Shown piece after piece: positions 39,429 to 46,883 of a stretch of 47,717 nt of DNA. The notes under the pieces are model-generated. The model did not search any database. It was not told the origin of the DNA and worked only from the letters and a program-made list of their open reading frames with translations. How positions within the stretch are numbered: the stretch's first letter is position 1; each line of letters starts with the position of its first letter. The position numbers and the translations under genes are program-made. The DNA comes from Bacteroidota bacterium (GTDB lineage: Bacteria > Bacteroidota > Ignavibacteria > UBA10030 > UBA8401), in the NCBI GenBank assembly GCA_019455105.1, contig JACFMZ010000007.1, positions 1 to 47,717 of the forward strand, written 5' to 3'.

Positions 39429-42203
39429 TTAATTGTGTTTTAAATATTCTCTCAGCACGTACTGCAAGATTCCCTGATTTTTGTAATACTCAATTTCTAT
39501 TGCAGAATCCAAACGCGCCTTTACCGTAAAGGTAATTTCTTTGCCGGAGGGATGAATCGCTTTAACATCCAATGTTTTGTGCGGTTTCAAATTATCCGCC
39601 AGCCCGCTGATGGTAAATGTTTCCGTTCCGTCTAAACCGAGCGATGCCGCTGTTTCTCCTTCCGAAAATACCAACGGCGCAACGCCCATACCGACAAGAT
39701 TGCTTCGGTGAATGCGTTCAAAACTTTCCGCAATAACGGCTTTTACCCCGAGCAGAAATGTTCCCTTTGCCGCCCAGTCGCGCGACGAACCCGAACCGTA
39801 CTCTTTTCCGGCAAGAATAATCAGCGGAGTTTTATCCTGCTGGTACTGCATAGCAACATCGTACACGGATTTTACTTCTCCGGTCGGAAGATAACGACTG
39901 AACCCGCCTTCTTTATCGGAAATTTTATTTTTAATGCGCACATTCGCAAATGTTCCGCGCATCATCACTTCATGATTTCCTCTTCGCGAACCGTACGAAT
40001 TAAAATCTTCTTTATTGACTCCTTTGCTTTTCAAGTAAGCGCCGGCAGCAGAAGTTTCTTTAAATGAACCGGCAGGAGAAATATGATCCGTTGTAACTGA
40101 ATCGCCTAAATACAACAGCACCTTTGCGCCCTGAATATCCGAAATCCGTTCCGGCGCAGCTTTTAGATTTTCAAAGAACGGCGCTTCGCGAATGTATGTT
40201 GAATTTTTGTCCCACTCGAAGTTTTGTCCGAGTTTTACTTGTAAATTCTGCCAGTCGGTTGAACCGTCAAAAATTACATCGTACACTTCTTCAAAATCAT
40301 CCTGCTTCATGCAGTTATTGATTGTTCTTTGAATTTCATCACGCGAGGGCCAGATATCTTTCAGATACACCGGTTCGCCGTTCGGGTCAAAATCAATCGG
40401 GTCGTTAATTAAATCAATATCCACTCTTCCCGCCAGCGCGTAGGCAACAACCAGCATCGGCGACATAAGAAAATTCATTTTTACCTGCGGGTGAACGCGT
40501 GCTTCAAAATTTCTGTTTCCGGAAAGTACCGATGCGACAACCAATTCTCCTCTATCAACTGCCGTAGCAATTGCCGGGGGAAGCGGACCGGAATTTCCGA
40601 TACACGAAGTGCAGCCGTAGCCGACGGTATGAAAACGAAGCGCGTCTAAATCAACATTCAATCCGGATCGTTCTAAATATTTCGTTACAACTTTCGAACC
40701 CGGAGCTAATGAGGTTTTCACCCACGATTTTGACCGCAAACCTCTTTCGACGGCATTTCGTGCAAGCAGTCCGGCGCCGACCATAACAGCAGGATTTGAA
40801 GTATTGGTGCAGCTGGTAATGGCGGCGATAACAATGCTTCCATCGCTTACAACAAATTCTTTATGCGGCTGCTTAATCCGTACCGAGTGATGCATTTTAT
40901 CAACTTCAACATCGGATTTAACTTCGCCGTGAAGCGGAACTTTTCCGAAAGTAAATTCGGTTCCCGAGCCCCCTTCTTTCAACCACGCCGATTCAAAACG
41001 ATCTTCTTTCGGCTGGTACTCGCGGCTGAATTCATTTTTTAAAACTTCCTTAAACTTTGTTCCTAAATCTTTTACAAAAATCTTATCCTGCGGACGTTTA
41101 GGACCGGAAACCGTCGGTTCCAACGTGGACAAATCTAATTCCACAATGCTGGAATATTGTATCTCTTCGTTTCCGGTTCTCCACAAAAGATTTTCTTTAC
41201 AGTATGTTTCAACAATTTTAATCTGTTCTTCCGTGCGATTGGTGGAACGCATATATTCCAGCGTGCGGTTATCAATCGGAAAATAAGTAACTGTGCATCC
41301 AAATTCAGGAGACATATTACCGATGGTTGCCCGGTCGGTAACGGTAAGATTTTCCAAACCATCGCCGAACACTTCAACAAATTTTCCGACAACGCCCGCT
41401 TTGCGCAAAAGATTTGCAATCGCTAACACTAAATCCGTTGCAGTGCATTGATTCGGAATTTTTCCGGTAAGCTTTAAACCGACAACCTGCGGACAGGTAA
41501 AAAATATCGGCTGACCAAGCATTGCCGCTTCTGCTTCAATGCCGCCGACTCCCCACGCAATAACACCGATTCCATTGACCATCGGCGTATGCGAATCTGT
41601 TCCGACTAACGTATCGGGAAACAGCCAGCCATCCCGCGCAATAACACCTTTGGAAAGGTATTCCAAATTCACCTGATGACAAATTCCCATTCCGGGAGGA
41701 ACAACGGTAAAATTACGCAGTCCTTTCTGCGCCCATTTTAAAAGTTCGTAACGTTCTTTGTTTCGTTCAAATTCAAGTTCAACATTCTTATCGTATGAAT
41801 AATCTGTTCCAAAATAATCTACCTGCACCGAATGGTCAATTACTAAATCTACGGGAATGGCGGGATTAATTTTCTCTCCGTCTTTTCCATGGCGCACAAA
41901 TTCAGCGCGAAGCGACGCCATATCCACAACGGCAGGAACGCCGGTAAAATCCTGCATTAAAATTCGTGCCGGCATAAACGGAATGTCTTTATCAATTTCT
42001 GCCGGAGTCCATTTCAATAATGTTTCAATGTGCTCGTCGGTGATGCTGAATCCGTCGTGATTGCGCAGCGCGTTTTCCAATAAAATGCGAATGCTGAACG
42101 GTAAGTGCGAAATATTTGCACGTAAATCTTTTAAAGAACAATACCGGTATGATGTTCCGTTAACCGAAAGTTCTTTTACGGCTTTTGCTTTTGAGTAGCT
42201 CAT
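39429..42203 (-). CDS. acnA: aconitate hydratase (AcnA type)
   Basis: 924 residues. The [4Fe-4S] cysteines are in AAITSCTNTSNPAVM and GYGCTSCIGNSGPLP; GTDSHTPMVNG and the swivelling-domain NSYGSRRGNHEVMMRGTFANVR and AGKEYGSGSSRDWAAKG segments follow. It isomerises citrate and isocitrate in the TCA cycle. AcnA-type proteins can double as iron-responsive RNA-binding proteins. Its labile cluster is a classic NO and superoxide target, and it is divergent from the RIC Fe-S repair gene with 216 bases between the start codons, which may be meaningful. Confidence 0.97.
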   Translation of the reverse strand: MSYSKAKAVKELSVNGTSYRYCSLKDLRANISHLPFSIRILLENALRNHDGFSITDEHIETLLKWTPAEIDKDIPFMPARILMQDFTGVPAVVDMASLRAEFVRHGKDGEKINPAIPVDLVIDHSVQVDYFGTDYSYDKNVELEFERNKERYELLKWAQKGLRNFTVVPPGMGICHQVNLEYLSKGVIARDGWLFPDTLVGTDSHTPMVNGIGVIAWGVGGIEAEAAMLGQPIFFTCPQVVGLKLTGKIPNQCTATDLVLAIANLLRKAGVVGKFVEVFGDGLENLTVTDRATIGNMSPEFGCTVTYFPIDNRTLEYMRSTNRTEEQIKIVETYCKENLLWRTGNEEIQYSSIVELDLSTLEPTVSGPKRPQDKIFVKDLGTKFKEVLKNEFSREYQPKEDRFESAWLKEGGSGTEFTFGKVPLHGEVKSDVEVDKMHHSVRIKQPHKEFVVSDGSIVIAAITSCTNTSNPAVMVGAGLLARNAVERGLRSKSWVKTSLAPGSKVVTKYLERSGLNVDLDALRFHTVGYGCTSCIGNSGPLPPAIATAVDRGELVVASVLSGNRNFEARVHPQVKMNFLMSPMLVVAYALAGRVDIDLINDPIDFDPNGEPVYLKDIWPSRDEIQRTINNCMKQDDFEEVYDVIFDGSTDWQNLQVKLGQNFEWDKNSTYIREAPFFENLKAAPERISDIQGAKVLLYLGDSVTTDHISPAGSFKETSAAGAYLKSKGVNKEDFNSYGSRRGNHEVMMRGTFANVRIKNKISDKEGGFSRYLPTGEVKSVYDVAMQYQQDKTPLIILAGKEYGSGSSRDWAAKGTFLLGVKAVIAESFERIHRSNLVGMGVAPLVFSEGETAASLGLDGTETFTISGLADNLKPHKTLDVKAIHPSGKEITFTVKARLDSAIEIEYYKNQGILQYVLREYLKHN

Positions 42204-42352: not shown

Positions 42353-42383
42353 TTGCTTTTATTGATTAATAATATTATCTTTG
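42353..42383 (+). promoter_or_regulatory. consensus -33/-7 promoter of RIC gene, overlapping a palindrome
   Basis: TTG (42353-42355), 20-base spacer, TATCTTTG (42376-42383): a full match to the Bacteroides consensus TTG-N20-TAnnTTTG. A perfect 10-bp palindrome ATAATATTAT (42369-42378) overlaps the spacer and the -7 box, a natural place for a repressor such as the Rrf2 protein encoded downstream. A start site near 42390 would give a 30-base leader. Confidence 0.75.
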
Positions 42384-42419: not shown

Positions 42420-43901
42420 ATGCAAAACACAAAAGAAGCTACCGTTATCAATGTTCAGGAAGTTGAGCCGAGACTGCGTCATCAAACCATCTTTCAAACT
42501 TTTGACGGACTGCAGGAAAATGAAAGTTTAATTATTCATAACAATCATGATCCCCGCCCTGTCTATTATCAGATGATGGAAATTTTCGGCGATATTTTTT
42601 CTTGGGAATATCTTCAGCAGGGACCCGAATGGTGGGATATTAAAGTAACAAAAAAATCCGCACCGCTGCAGACTTCCGTTGAAACACAGCCTGATGAATT
42701 GGTAATAGATGTTCCGGCAATTACTGAACACCGATTAAAACACGCCATTATTTTAAAAGCGTTTGATAATTTAACGCCGGGAAAATCTTTTGTTATTCAT
42801 AACGATCATGATCCGCGTCCGATTTATTTTCAACTTATGAATCTTCACGGTGATGTTTTTACCTGGGAATATTTACGGCAGGGTCCGCAGTGGTGGGATA
42901 TCCGCGTAACACGAAAAGGTGAACCGCAGCCGGCACAACCAGCGGCACAAAACGGCAAAGATATTATTGTGGACGGTCCCTCGCTTGAACCAAGATTAAA
43001 ACATCCGACAATTTTTAAAACGTTTGATGGTTTACAGCCGGGCGAAAGTCTCGTCATTCATAATGATCACGATCCGAAGCCGGTCTATTATCAATTATTA
43101 AACGAACGGGGCGATGTCTTCACCTGGGAATATCTGCAGCAAGGACCGCAGTGGTGGGATATTCGCGTAACGAAAAAAGGAACGGAGATTCAAGAAACTA
43201 TCGGACAGATTGTTGCCAAAGATTTACGCAAAGCCGACGTGTTGAAAAAATACGGAATTGATTTCTGCTGCGGCGGAAAGAAAACTGTCCGTGAAGCGTG
43301 CGCCGAAATCGGCGTGGATGCTTCCAAAGTGGAAGAAGAACTTCGCAAGCCGGTACAAAATGCCACCGGTAACAATAATTTGAATTTCGACGAGTGGAAC
43401 GTTGACTTTCTTGCCGATTATATTGTAAACACACACCACAATTATGTAAAAAAATATTTACCGGAAATTAACGGCTATGCCGTAAAAGTTGCACAGGTGC
43501 ACGGTTCCAATCATCCTGAATTATTAACCATTCGCGATCTCGTGCGAAAAGTAAATAACGAAATGTTTGAACATATGGCGGATGAAGAGACAAAACTGTT
43601 TCCGCAAATAAAAGAAATTCTCAACGCAAAAAATTCCAAAGGTTCATATACCAAAAAAGGAAACGAAAGTTTTTCTTATGTCGTTAAGAGTTCGGAAAAA
43701 GAACATGAAGAAGTCGGCGATGCCATGAAAGAAATCCGCAAGCTGAGCAAAAACTTTGCTATTCCGGAAGATGCATGCACCAGCTATAAACTGCTCTACA
43801 AAATGCTGGATGAGTTTGAGAATGATTTATTCACTCACGTGCATTTAGAAAACAACATTCTCTTCCCGAAAACCGAAGAGATGGAAAAAGCATTTTTATA
43901 A
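42420..43901 (+). CDS. RIC/ScdA-type di-iron Fe-S repair protein with three N-terminal DUF2249 domains
   Basis: 493 residues from ATG 42420, which follows AAAGGA; the TTG at 42381 lies in the promoter. Three near-identical DUF2249 repeats occupy residues about 9-79, 94-167 and 182-254 (core IHNDHDPRP...YYQ, ending QGPxWWDIRV). Next is the ScdA N-terminal domain with YGIDFCCGG (about 258-310), then a hemerythrin domain (about 325-485) with the expected iron ligands in NTHHNY, HGSNHPEL, FEHMADEE, EKEHEEV and FTHVHLENN. RIC proteins repair Fe-S clusters damaged by nitric oxide or oxidants, apparently by supplying iron. The linkers between repeats are Pro/Ala/Gln-rich. A strong terminator follows. 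Confidence 0.9.
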   Translation: MQNTKEATVINVQEVEPRLRHQTIFQTFDGLQENESLIIHNNHDPRPVYYQMMEIFGDIFSWEYLQQGPEWWDIKVTKKSAPLQTSVETQPDELVIDVPAITEHRLKHAIILKAFDNLTPGKSFVIHNDHDPRPIYFQLMNLHGDVFTWEYLRQGPQWWDIRVTRKGEPQPAQPAAQNGKDIIVDGPSLEPRLKHPTIFKTFDGLQPGESLVIHNDHDPKPVYYQLLNERGDVFTWEYLQQGPQWWDIRVTKKGTEIQETIGQIVAKDLRKADVLKKYGIDFCCGGKKTVREACAEIGVDASKVEEELRKPVQNATGNNNLNFDEWNVDFLADYIVNTHHNYVKKYLPEINGYAVKVAQVHGSNHPELLTIRDLVRKVNNEMFEHMADEETKLFPQIKEILNAKNSKGSYTKKGNESFSYVVKSSEKEHEEVGDAMKEIRKLSKNFAIPEDACTSYKLLYKMLDEFENDLFTHVHLENNILFPKTEEMEKAFL

Positions 43902-43921: not shown

Positions 43922-43952
43922 AAGGGACAGACACAGCGTCTGTCCCTTTTTT
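43922..43952 (+). terminator. rho-independent terminator after RIC gene
   Basis: AAGGGACAGAC (43922-43932) / GTCTGTCCCTT (43938-43948) with an ACAGC loop, then TTTT. It lies 20 bases past the stop codon. Confidence 0.93.
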
Positions 43953-44001: not shown

Positions 44002-44829
44002 ATGCTCATTAATGAACAAACAAAAATTGCGGTTCTCCTTAAACATCACCCGGATGCGTTAGAGGCTATTGTTGCATTAACGCCGGATTTTAAAAAACTT
44101 CGAAATCCTGTGCTTCGTAAACTTATGGCAGGAAGAACCAGCATTGCCATGGCGTCAAAAATCGGCGGCTGTACACCGGAAGATTTTTTTCGCGTGCTCG
44201 CTCCATTAGGTTTTGAAAAAGACACCGCTCCCGTTAAAAAAGAGAAGGCACCAAAAAACAAACCGGTTCCAAATTATTTAAGAGCCTTAAAACCGGAACA
44301 ACTGATAAATTTTGATGTCCGCCAAATGCTTGCCGACGGTAACGATCCGCTGCGGGAAATTCAGCAGAAAGTAAAAGCCTTAAAGCCGGGTGAAGCGATG
44401 ATTATTACCAATACCTTCGAACCGGTGCCGTTGATTCAATTATTAAAAAAGCAGGGCTTCGAGTCGTATGTTAATTTTATCGATCAGGATATTGTTGAAA
44501 CATATTTTTATAAAACTGATGAGACTAAACCGAGCGCTCCTTCGGCCGAAGACGATGCCGCAATTGCTACTTCCGGAGATTGGGAAATAAAATTAAAAAG
44601 TTTTGAAAATAATCTTGTAGAAATCGACGTCCAGCATTTGGAAGCGCCGATGCCGATGATGACGATTTTGGAATCGCTGGAAACTCTGCCGGAAGGAAAA
44701 GCATTGTATGTTCACCACAAACGAATTCCTGTTTTTCTTCTCACCGAATTGAAAGACCGAAAATTTGAATATCGGATAAAAGAAATTCAAGAAGGAGAGG
44801 TGTACTTATTGATTTACAGAGAGAAGTAG
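44002..44829 (+). CDS. DUF1858-like plus DUF2249 domain protein
   Basis: 275 residues from ATG 44002 (the TTG at 43984 only extends the N-terminus). Residues about 5-70 (AVLLKHHPDALEAIVAL, PVLRKLMAGRTSIAMASKIGG) resemble DUF1858, a small helical domain seen next to hybrid-cluster and RIC proteins. Two DUF2249-like segments follow (about 95-175 and 195-275), the second ending YRIKEIQEGEVYLLIYREK. DUF2249 has a TusA-like fold. No catalytic motif is visible; a binding or scaffold partner for the RIC protein is plausible. The next gene starts 6 bases after the stop. Confidence 0.75.
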   Translation: MLINEQTKIAVLLKHHPDALEAIVALTPDFKKLRNPVLRKLMAGRTSIAMASKIGGCTPEDFFRVLAPLGFEKDTAPVKKEKAPKNKPVPNYLRALKPEQLINFDVRQMLADGNDPLREIQQKVKALKPGEAMIITNTFEPVPLIQLLKKQGFESYVNFIDQDIVETYFYKTDETKPSAPSAEDDAAIATSGDWEIKLKSFENNLVEIDVQHLEAPMPMMTILESLETLPEGKALYVHHKRIPVFLLTELKDRKFEYRIKEIQEGEVYLLIYREK

Positions 44830-44835
44830 AACATT

Positions 44836-46122
44836 ATGTTTGGACCAATGATTAGCGGCGTACAGCAAACAACCAATTACAGAGTGGTGCTGCCGTTTTA
44901 TATTTACGCGTCAATTTCATTTTTCGCCGGCACAATTTTACTGCTGCTGCATACGGAAATTTTTCAGGTACATTTTTTTAATCAATACACGCTGGCAATT
45001 ACGCATACGATGGCGCTCGGCTGGGGAACAATGATTATTCTCGGCGCATCGCATCAGCTTCTGCCGGTGCTGATTGAAGGAAAACTTGAAAGCAATCCGC
45101 TTGCTTATACAACATTTTTCTTTACGGCAATCGGTATTCCTCTGCTTGTAGCGGGCTTTTATGTTTTTCATACGGACGGCTGGGTGCTAAAATCAGGAGC
45201 GGTGCTGGTAAATATCGGCGTAATATTTTATCTCCTTAATGTGTACAGCAGCGCCTTTAACAGCACAACAAGAAATGTTCATGCGTGGTATATTCTTACC
45301 GCTTCGTTTTGGTTATTTTCCACCACCTTTTTCGGACTTTTATTAGTCTGGAATTTTAATACTCCGATTCTTCCAAGCGATTCCGTCAGCTACTTAACGC
45401 TTCATGCGCATTTAGGAATTGTCGGCTGGTTTTTGTTAATGGTTATCGGCGTCGGCTCGCGGCTCATTCCGATGTTTTTAATTTCCAAATATGTGAACAA
45501 CAAAATGCTCTGGTGGATTTTCGGATTGGTGAATGCAGGATTGATTAGTTTTATTTTTCTAAAACTCTGGAATACGCCGGCTGTCTATTATTATTTTTCC
45601 GTAGCGCTGATTTTAGCGGGAGTGGTATTATTCGGGAGACACTGCATAAAAGCAAAAAATGTACGCATTAGAAAAGGCATTGACGAGCAGATGAAAACTT
45701 CTCTCCTCTCCGTACTTCAAATGCTCTTGCCGATTGCCGCGCTTCTTCTTGTGCTGCTGTTTCTTCCGGCAGATCGTTATCCGAATATCGGCTTACTGTA
45801 CGGCTTTTGCATTTTCTTCGGATGGATTACGGCAATTATTTTAGGAATGACTTTTAAAACTCTTCCGTTTATTGTGTGGAATAAAGTGTACCACAAGCGG
45901 GCGCATGCCGGAAAAACTCCCGTGCCGAAAGATTTATTCAGCGAGCGTGTTTATCATATAATGCTGCTTGCATATGTATCGGGTTTTGTTGTATTTATTT
46001 TCGGAATTATTTTTATCAACCAATTGACGCTGCAAATCGGCGCCGTTTGCCTGCTCGCAGCGGCAGCGCTGTATTTGTTCAACGTCGGAAAAACTTATTT
46101 TCATCAACCGGAGAAAGTATGA
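44836..46122 (+). CDS. 12-TM heme-copper oxidase subunit I-like membrane protein
   Basis: 428 residues with about 12 TM segments and almost no soluble parts. His57 (AITHTMALGWGTM), His73 (GASHQLLPVL) and His190/His192 (LTLHAHLGIVGWF, then GVGSRLIPMFLIS) sit in conserved membrane motifs, as in cytochrome cbb3/NorB-like subunit I relatives often annotated as cbb3-type subunit I in Bacteroidetes. The paired HH and HFH ligands of a heme-copper centre are not seen, so it may bind only low-spin heme(s), similar in spirit to NnrS. Expressed with Fe-S repair genes, it could sense or handle NO. It overlaps the next gene by ATGA. Confidence 0.75.
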   Translation: MFGPMISGVQQTTNYRVVLPFYIYASISFFAGTILLLLHTEIFQVHFFNQYTLAITHTMALGWGTMIILGASHQLLPVLIEGKLESNPLAYTTFFFTAIGIPLLVAGFYVFHTDGWVLKSGAVLVNIGVIFYLLNVYSSAFNSTTRNVHAWYILTASFWLFSTTFFGLLLVWNFNTPILPSDSVSYLTLHAHLGIVGWFLLMVIGVGSRLIPMFLISKYVNNKMLWWIFGLVNAGLISFIFLKLWNTPAVYYYFSVALILAGVVLFGRHCIKAKNVRIRKGIDEQMKTSLLSVLQMLLPIAALLLVLLFLPADRYPNIGLLYGFCIFFGWITAIILGMTFKTLPFIVWNKVYHKRAHAGKTPVPKDLFSERVYHIMLLAYVSGFVVFIFGIIFINQLTLQIGAVCLLAAAALYLFNVGKTYFHQPEKV

Positions 46123-46448
46123 GTGTTAATGTAGCCAGCAACAACGCGGAACAGTGCGAATATGCTTTAAAAGATTTATACAACGTAGATGATCCTGAAG
46201 TGGGATTGAACGTTGTTGATTTAGGATTAATTTATCAGTTAAACTTTGACGAAGCAGGAAAAAAATTAGATGCAACAATGACGTTAACAACACAATTCTG
46301 CCCGATGGGAGAAAGTATTACCAGCAATATAACGCAGTCGCTGGTAAATTCATTTCCCGGCTGGGAAGTGAATGTTAATTTAACCTTCGAGCCGCCGTGG
46401 GATTTTTCAAAAATTTCACCGGAAGGACGAAAATTTTTAGGACACTAA
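46119..46448 (+). CDS. DUF59/MIP18-type Fe-S cluster assembly protein
   Basis: 109 residues. NVDDPEVGLNVVDLGLIYQLNFDE at residues about 22-45 and MTLTTQFCPMGESITSNI with the conserved Cys are the MIP18/DUF59 signature (SufT, PaaD, CIAO2 relatives), which act in maturation of Fe-S proteins. The ATG lies within the stop codon of the membrane protein gene (ATGA), so the two are translationally coupled. The Rrf2 gene follows after 3 bases. Confidence 0.9.
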   Translation: MSVNVASNNAEQCEYALKDLYNVDDPEVGLNVVDLGLIYQLNFDEAGKKLDATMTLTTQFCPMGESITSNITQSLVNSFPGWEVNVNLTFEPPWDFSKISPEGRKFLGH

Positions 46449-46451
46449 ACT

Positions 46452-46883
46452 ATGCTCAGTCATACATGTAAAACCACCATTAAAGCGGTTATTTATCTTT
46501 CCTGTAAAAGTTCAACCGGAGAAAAAGCCAGCTTGAAGGAAATTTCCGAACACATTAACGCCAGCGAACACACGGTCGGAAAAACATTGCAGCTTTTGGT
46601 TAAGCAGGATATTATTAACAGCTTAAAAGGTCCGTTCGGAGGATTTTTTCTCAGCGAGGATCAGCAAAACCAGCCGATTTCCAACATTGTTGAAACAATA
46701 GAGGGAAAAGGAATTTTTAAAGAATGCGGATTGGGATTAAGCAAATGTTCCGAAACCCATCCCTGCCCCATTCATCACGAATACAAACCGATGCGCGAAC
46801 AGATTGAACGAATCTTCAGAGAAAAAAAAGTTAAAGATCTTTGTAGTTCTGTTTCCAGCGGCACAGCATTTTTAATGGATTAA
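46452..46883 (+). CDS. Rrf2-family Fe-S transcriptional regulator (NsrR/IscR-like)
   Basis: 143 residues. A winged helix-turn-helix (about 25-68: SLKEISEHINASEHTVGKTLQLLVKQDII, then GPFGGFFL) precedes three cysteines, C92, C99 and C105, at almost exactly the NsrR/IscR spacing in ECGLGLSKCSETHPCPIHHEY. A cluster at these residues would sense NO, O2 or Fe-S status and govern DNA binding. Since it is encoded inside the Fe-S repair locus it likely autoregulates it; the palindrome over the RIC promoter is a candidate site. NsrR rather than IscR is my preference from context only. Confidence 0.85.
   Translation: MLSHTCKTTIKAVIYLSCKSSTGEKASLKEISEHINASEHTVGKTLQLLVKQDIINSLKGPFGGFFLSEDQQNQPISNIVETIEGKGIFKECGLGLSKCSETHPCPIHHEYKPMREQIERIFREKKVKDLCSSVSSGTAFLMD

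Follow-up and report, generated by a model that had tools for sequence, protein, structure and literature searches.

Domain organization of the RIC fusion protein

The window analyzed here is a stretch of 47,717 nucleotides from a Bacteroidota bacterium (GTDB class Ignavibacteria). On its forward strand, an uninterrupted open reading frame at positions 42420-43901 encodes, from an ATG start, a protein of 493 amino acids. The first-pass annotation had read this protein as three DUF2249 domains followed by a ScdA_N domain and a hemerythrin domain, and the profile searches confirmed this reading, with every domain scoring above the curated Pfam or NCBIfam cut-off. Since relatives align from the ATG, translation is less likely to begin at a TTG codon found upstream at position 42381. 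The DUF2249 profile (PF10006) gave three matches with a total E-value of 7e-69, and against a cut-off of 29.5 bits the copies scored 75-86 bits, namely 82 bits for copy 1 (42447-42653, forward strand), 75 bits for copy 2 (42705-42914, forward strand) and 86 bits for copy 3 (42981-43175, forward strand). Copy 1 is of the DrpA type and carries the motifs H-x-TIF, HNNHDPRP, W-x-Y-L and GPEWW.

The remainder of the protein is formed by the ScdA_N domain (43191-43349, forward strand; PF04405, 78.6 bits, E-value of 5e-21) and the hemerythrin-like di-iron domain (43419-43871, forward strand; PF01814, E-value of 3.4e-16). The ScdA_N domain contains the YGIDFCCGG motif that had been noted earlier, in which the vicinal Cys283 and Cys284 are kept. 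When the hemerythrin-like domain was aligned to the YtfE structure 5fnn, His340, His385, Glu389, His429, His473 and Glu477 corresponded to His84, His129, Glu133, His160, His204 and Glu208 of YtfE, and all six di-iron ligands are kept. In addition, the product scored 243.4 bits with the RIC equivalog profile TIGR03652, whose cut-off is 204.7 bits. Judged by its sequence, the C-terminal half of the fusion is a true RIC/YtfE/ScdA protein. It shares with this family (TIGR03652; PDB 5FNN, 7BHA, 9R7J) the ScdA_N domain with its Cys-Cys pair, the hemerythrin domain and the six di-iron ligands, whereas the N-terminal extension of about 255 residues, made up of the three DUF2249 domains, and the operon are different. 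A second, plain RIC of 244 amino acids is encoded on another contig of the source genome.

The linkers between the repeats had been described as rich in Pro, Ala and Gln. This is true of linker 2 (EPQPAQPAAQNGKD), whereas the enrichment is mild in linker 1 (APLQTSVETQPDE), and Glu, Asn and Ala are abundant when the linkers of all relatives are considered. Between repeats, the linkers span 7 to 42 residues, whereas the distance from the last copy to the DFCCGG motif is 26-30 residues, with a standard deviation of 1.0 among 88 relatives; copy 3 and ScdA_N are thus separated by a short stretch of nearly constant length. The full-length model (pTM 0.59) has its weak spots in the linkers and does not fix the arrangement of the domains.

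Conserved site and predicted fold of the DUF2249 repeats

DUF2249 proteins are widespread in denitrification islands, but the family has, to our knowledge, no member with a known molecular function, structure, ligand or partner. The three repeats of the window show pairwise amino acid identities of 54%, 66% and 68%, and their DNA sequences are 64-69% identical, values that do not agree with the near identity previously claimed for them. Across 214 DUF2249 copies, His15, Asn35, His37, Asp38, Pro39, Pro41, Trp56, Tyr58, Gly62 and Pro63 are essentially invariant, and His34 is common among the fusion copies and missing from DrpA. These signature residues are kept whether a copy stands first, in the middle, last or alone in its array, indicating that every DUF2249 copy is under selection. 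Each copy of the window has an intact conserved site, which is consistent with the proposal that the protein has three repeated binding sites.

The prediction of a single repeat had a pLDDT of 96.9. When this model was compared with the PDB using Foldseek, the top matches were HP1264, the SirA-like DSY4693 and TusA of the IscS-TusA complex (TMq of 0.59-0.75 and probability of about 1, none with E-value below 0.001). The model has a TusA/SirA-like topology, and its predicted β-α-β-α-β-β fold resembles that of TusA and SirA (PDB 3LVJ and 1DCJ; TM of about 0.6-0.7), with a His/HDP site in place of the catalytic Cys. Such a topology would be expected to bring His15, at the start of helix 1, and His37-Asp38, at the start of helix 2, to one and the same end of the sheet. 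The DUF2249 profile gave no match among PDB sequences, and the search of a viral structure library gave no useful match. The catalytic Cys that TusA has at the start of helix 1 is absent from the three repeats of the window, which contain no Cys at all, as do 208 of the 214 copies. This contradicts a TusA-type sulfur transfer by DUF2249, and with it the suggestion that the repair domain receives sulfur from the repeats.

A conserved five-gene operon

The fusion gene is the first of five genes on the forward strand. It is followed by a DrpB-like gene (44002-44829; 275 amino acids, DUF1858 plus two DUF2249 domains), which matches Thermus DrpB with an E-value of 1.8e-46; a gene for an NnrS-like membrane protein homologous to heme-copper oxidases (44836-46122; 428 amino acids, PF05940 below cut-off); a gene for a DUF59/MIP18-type Fe-S assembly protein (46116-46448; 110 amino acids, PF01883, with TIGR02945 below cut-off), which overlaps the NnrS-like gene before it; and a gene for an Rrf2-family regulator (46452-46883; 143 amino acids, PF02082, E-value of 4.4e-21). 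Cys residues in the C-terminal half of the regulator make an Rrf2 protein of the Fe-S type plausible. Of the fused loci, 68 are followed by 3.6 kb or more of sequence, and 55 of these have all four downstream genes, almost always in the same order. Ten fused RICs were retrieved from the Bacteroidota sample, and each is flanked by DrpB or Rrf2/DUF59 genes; no DrpB gene was found within 1.5 kb of RIC at about 44 plain RIC loci. A link between the fusion and the DUF1858 protein encoded beside it is supported.

The DUF2249 copies of the DrpB-like protein lack the NDHDP motif and match the TusA profile weakly. Because FEP or HKRIP stands where HDP would be, these copies probably do a different job from those of the fusion. 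The NnrS-like protein matches proteins of Thermus (E-value of 4.5e-23) and Rhizobium (8.8e-15) that are encoded beside drpA/drpB homologues. It scores under the NnrS cut-off, yet it recurs beside DrpB in several phyla, and it probably represents its own family of heme-copper-oxidase homologues. At one locus (L092), two consecutive NnrS-like genes are found within the operon.

The gap between the fusion gene and the DrpB-like gene contains a terminator- or attenuator-like hairpin (43922-43948, forward strand), an 11-bp stem followed by a T run that is a match to the consensus only. Similar hairpins are present in 14 of 66 other loci, and the element possibly lets RIC be expressed above the remaining genes of the operon. 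FNR-type boxes were not enriched upstream (9 loci, compared with a mean of 5 and a maximum of 11 after shuffling). Elsewhere in the source genome (L009, 5168-5923; contig C70), we observed a stand-alone protein of three DUF2249 domains with a degenerate middle domain. At about ten other loci, its relatives are encoded just 3' of the RIC operon.

Distribution and copy number

In a sample of 395 Bacteroidota genomes chosen regardless of the fusion gene, at least 12 genomes carry a DUF2249-fused RIC. About nine of these have a single copy, G033 has two copies, and both the window and G281 have three; plain RIC is far commoner. We also scanned GTDB contigs with the window protein, a search that favors multi-copy forms, and kept the best 80 of 348 relatives. 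Over all loci, the fused frames contain one (n = 34), two (n = 11), three (n = 29), four (n = 14) or five (n = 3; L089, L091 and L106) copies, and the forms with two to five copies occur in dozens of public genomes. The tabulation of architectures across Bacteroidota thus yielded a one- to five-copy series, and we rejected the idea that the architecture of the window is unique. The earlier statement that RICs normally have no such extension was overstated in view of these carriers. Most of them are metagenome-assembled genomes, and the named strains belong to Flavihumibacter, Segetibacter, Arcticibacter and Amniculibacterium; one sampled genome (G122) and Flavihumibacter soli have identical RICs.

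Evolutionary history of the fusion

The tree of RIC cores unites the fused RICs in a single group (SH-aLRT 95), which also includes two plain RICs (L023 and L042), and requires about 22 changes of copy number. In the domain tree, which has few columns and many weak forks, the nearest copy has the same position in another species for 47 of 57 first copies and for 88 of 91 last copies, and copy 1 of the window clusters with the first copies of other species. Since the copies group by position across species and their DNA has diverged strongly, the triplication in the window is not recent, contrary to what had been proposed. Based on these sequence comparisons, the fusion of DUF2249 to RIC most likely arose once. 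The expansion to several copies is old in some lineages, and in others it has happened repeatedly. Solo DUF2249 genes of 78 amino acids lie directly upstream of single-copy fusions in four loci (L124, L125, L129 and L015), suggesting gene duplication and fusion as one route.

Unfused counterparts and denitrification context

In four genomes of the same class, we found an unfused cluster of DrpB, NnrS-like and DUF59 genes with a plain RIC further on, in which a solo DUF2249 gene is present in L182-L184 and the separate RIC in L181-L184. Thermus DrpA scored 103.9 bits against the repeat profile. In Thermus thermophilus, a DrpA-type DUF2249 with RHPxIF, NDHDPKP and GPE-W motifs adjoins a DrpB of DUF1858-DUF2249-DUF2249 architecture, as the DrpA-type domain does at the window locus, and a Thermus plasmid record contains the same set of DrpA, DrpB, the membrane protein and, further on, DUF59. 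However, Thermus DrpA is a separate, single-copy protein of 72 amino acids encoded beside nar, with no RIC fusion, whereas in the window the DrpA-type domain is fused and tripled. Plasmid records of Rhizobium and Mesorhizobium contain part of the set, with NnrS and nirK in the former and with nos genes in the latter.

The combination of DUF2249 with hemerythrin domains is known from database counts (PMC6282519). DUF2249 proteins are also known from haloarchaeal denitrification regions (PMC11218638), and on a plasmid of Halorussus aquaticus (L188, 6752-7801) we observed a four-copy DUF2249 protein encoded beside ric. This pair corresponds to the Bacteroidota fusions in unfused form, with the array and RIC as separate proteins, unlike the single protein of the window. 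The source genome encodes a NosZ-type protein, and NirK and NrfA were not found in it.

Possible role of the fused DUF2249 domains

We favor, at about an even chance, the explanation that the protein is a RIC of N-oxide stress to which a DrpA-type partner has been fused and multiplied as docking or ligand modules coupling it to DrpB and the Fe-S machinery. The protein would be a cytosolic di-iron protein of the RIC type acting in defense against nitrite or NO stress, and the fusion argues that DUF2249 acts together with RIC in the cytosol. DrpA, usually a separate single-domain protein of denitrification islands, would have been joined to RIC and then multiplied. Each DUF2249 would be a Cys-less module whose single His/Asp/Trp/Tyr site holds a small ligand or metal, and/or would dock on the DrpB-like protein, the DUF59 protein or a cysteine desulfurase, as TusA does on IscS. 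The last copy, at its fixed distance from ScdA_N, probably works directly with the RIC core, and the upstream copies on their flexible linkers may contribute capacity or avidity. During nitrosative stress, the di-iron centre, as an iron donor or a nitrite reductase, would be brought to the Fe-S assembly or sensing machinery encoded by the operon. Fe-S proteins under NO stress are protected or repaired by RICs. YtfE binds IscS and IscU, and RICs can donate iron in vitro (PMC8117158); whether they act as iron donors through IscS/IscU or reduce nitrite is disputed (PMC9052748). In Thermus, mutation of drpAB abolishes nitrate control and most of the nitrate-reductase activity (PMC6282519). Some observations count against our explanation. 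Thermus DrpA was placed in the periplasm (PMC6282519), which does not fit a cytosolic fusion. Since NirK and NrfA were not found in the source genome, the source of N-oxide stress there is in doubt. The pTM of the full-length model and the E-values of the TusA matches also weigh against it.

A more specific form of the docking/ligand explanation, which we regard as unlikely, is that the His/HDP/Trp/Tyr site of the Cys-less TusA fold holds an N-oxide or iron in the cytosol and that arrays of one to five sites exchange this ligand with the di-iron centre. If true, DrpA would be a partner of the RIC type and not a nitrate sensor of the periplasm, because haloarchaea and other Bacteroidota keep the same partnership as separate proteins.

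The main rival explanation, although rather improbable in our judgment, is that the DUF2249 domains are sensors of nitrate, nitrite or NO that gate the di-iron centre or signal through DrpB, forming a regulatory relay rather than a repair system. In Thermus, deletions of drpA/drpB free the nar and dnr promoters from nitrate dependence (PMC6282519); denitrifying Haloferax induces DUF2249 genes (PMC11218638). The DrpB-like and Rrf2 genes of the operon and the conservation of the site without a catalytic Cys are also consistent with sensing. However, it is unusual for one molecule to carry three to five sensor domains, and DrpA is assigned to the periplasm while RICs are cytosolic. The fusions challenge the periplasmic-sensor model of DrpA.

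The first-pass annotation had proposed instead that the repeats are binding sites feeding iron or sulfur to the repair domain, which we now consider quite unlikely. The conserved His/Asp pattern would suit a metal site, the predicted fold is TusA-like and RICs are able to donate iron in vitro; nevertheless, the absence of Cys contradicts the sulfur version, and iron donation by RICs is itself disputed (PMC9052748). That the extra copies are largely neutral repeats, with one working and the others serving as spacers, is very unlikely: the frequent copy-number changes and the variable length and sequence of the linkers would fit, but signature residues are kept even in middle copies and position-specific identities have lasted over long times, which is not expected of neutral spacers.

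RIC, DUF2249 and the combination of DUF2249 with hemerythrin domains are already known. In the literature searched, neither multi-copy DUF2249-RIC fusions nor the five-gene operon are described, although work on DUF2249 with heme-copper-oxidase homologues and hemerythrins may report such fusions. The fused form of variable copy number appears to be previously undescribed. New here are the one- to five-copy series across Bacteroidota, the single group of fused RICs, the repeated copy changes and the conserved operon. These natural fusions tie DUF2249 to a well-studied cytosolic enzyme and to the operon, and they are ready-made constructs for testing DUF2249 binding.

Origin of the operon in the source genome

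No fused RIC was found in 97 other genomes of the order to which the window belongs. The RIC core of the window groups with Bacteroidia sequences, and the five operon genes, with identities of about 70-80%, share their nearest relatives (L071-L074, L105, L119 and similar loci). By contrast, an enolase encoded on this contig shows 90% identity to genomes of the same family, and contamination of the assembly is therefore unlikely. The simplest reading of these comparisons is that the whole operon was transferred from a Bacteroidia-like donor. An aconitase gene (39432-42203, reverse strand) is divergent from the RIC operon; its nearest relatives in the sample are found in other families of the class (86-87% identity), with matches from the same order at 54-56%, and this gene may also have been transferred.
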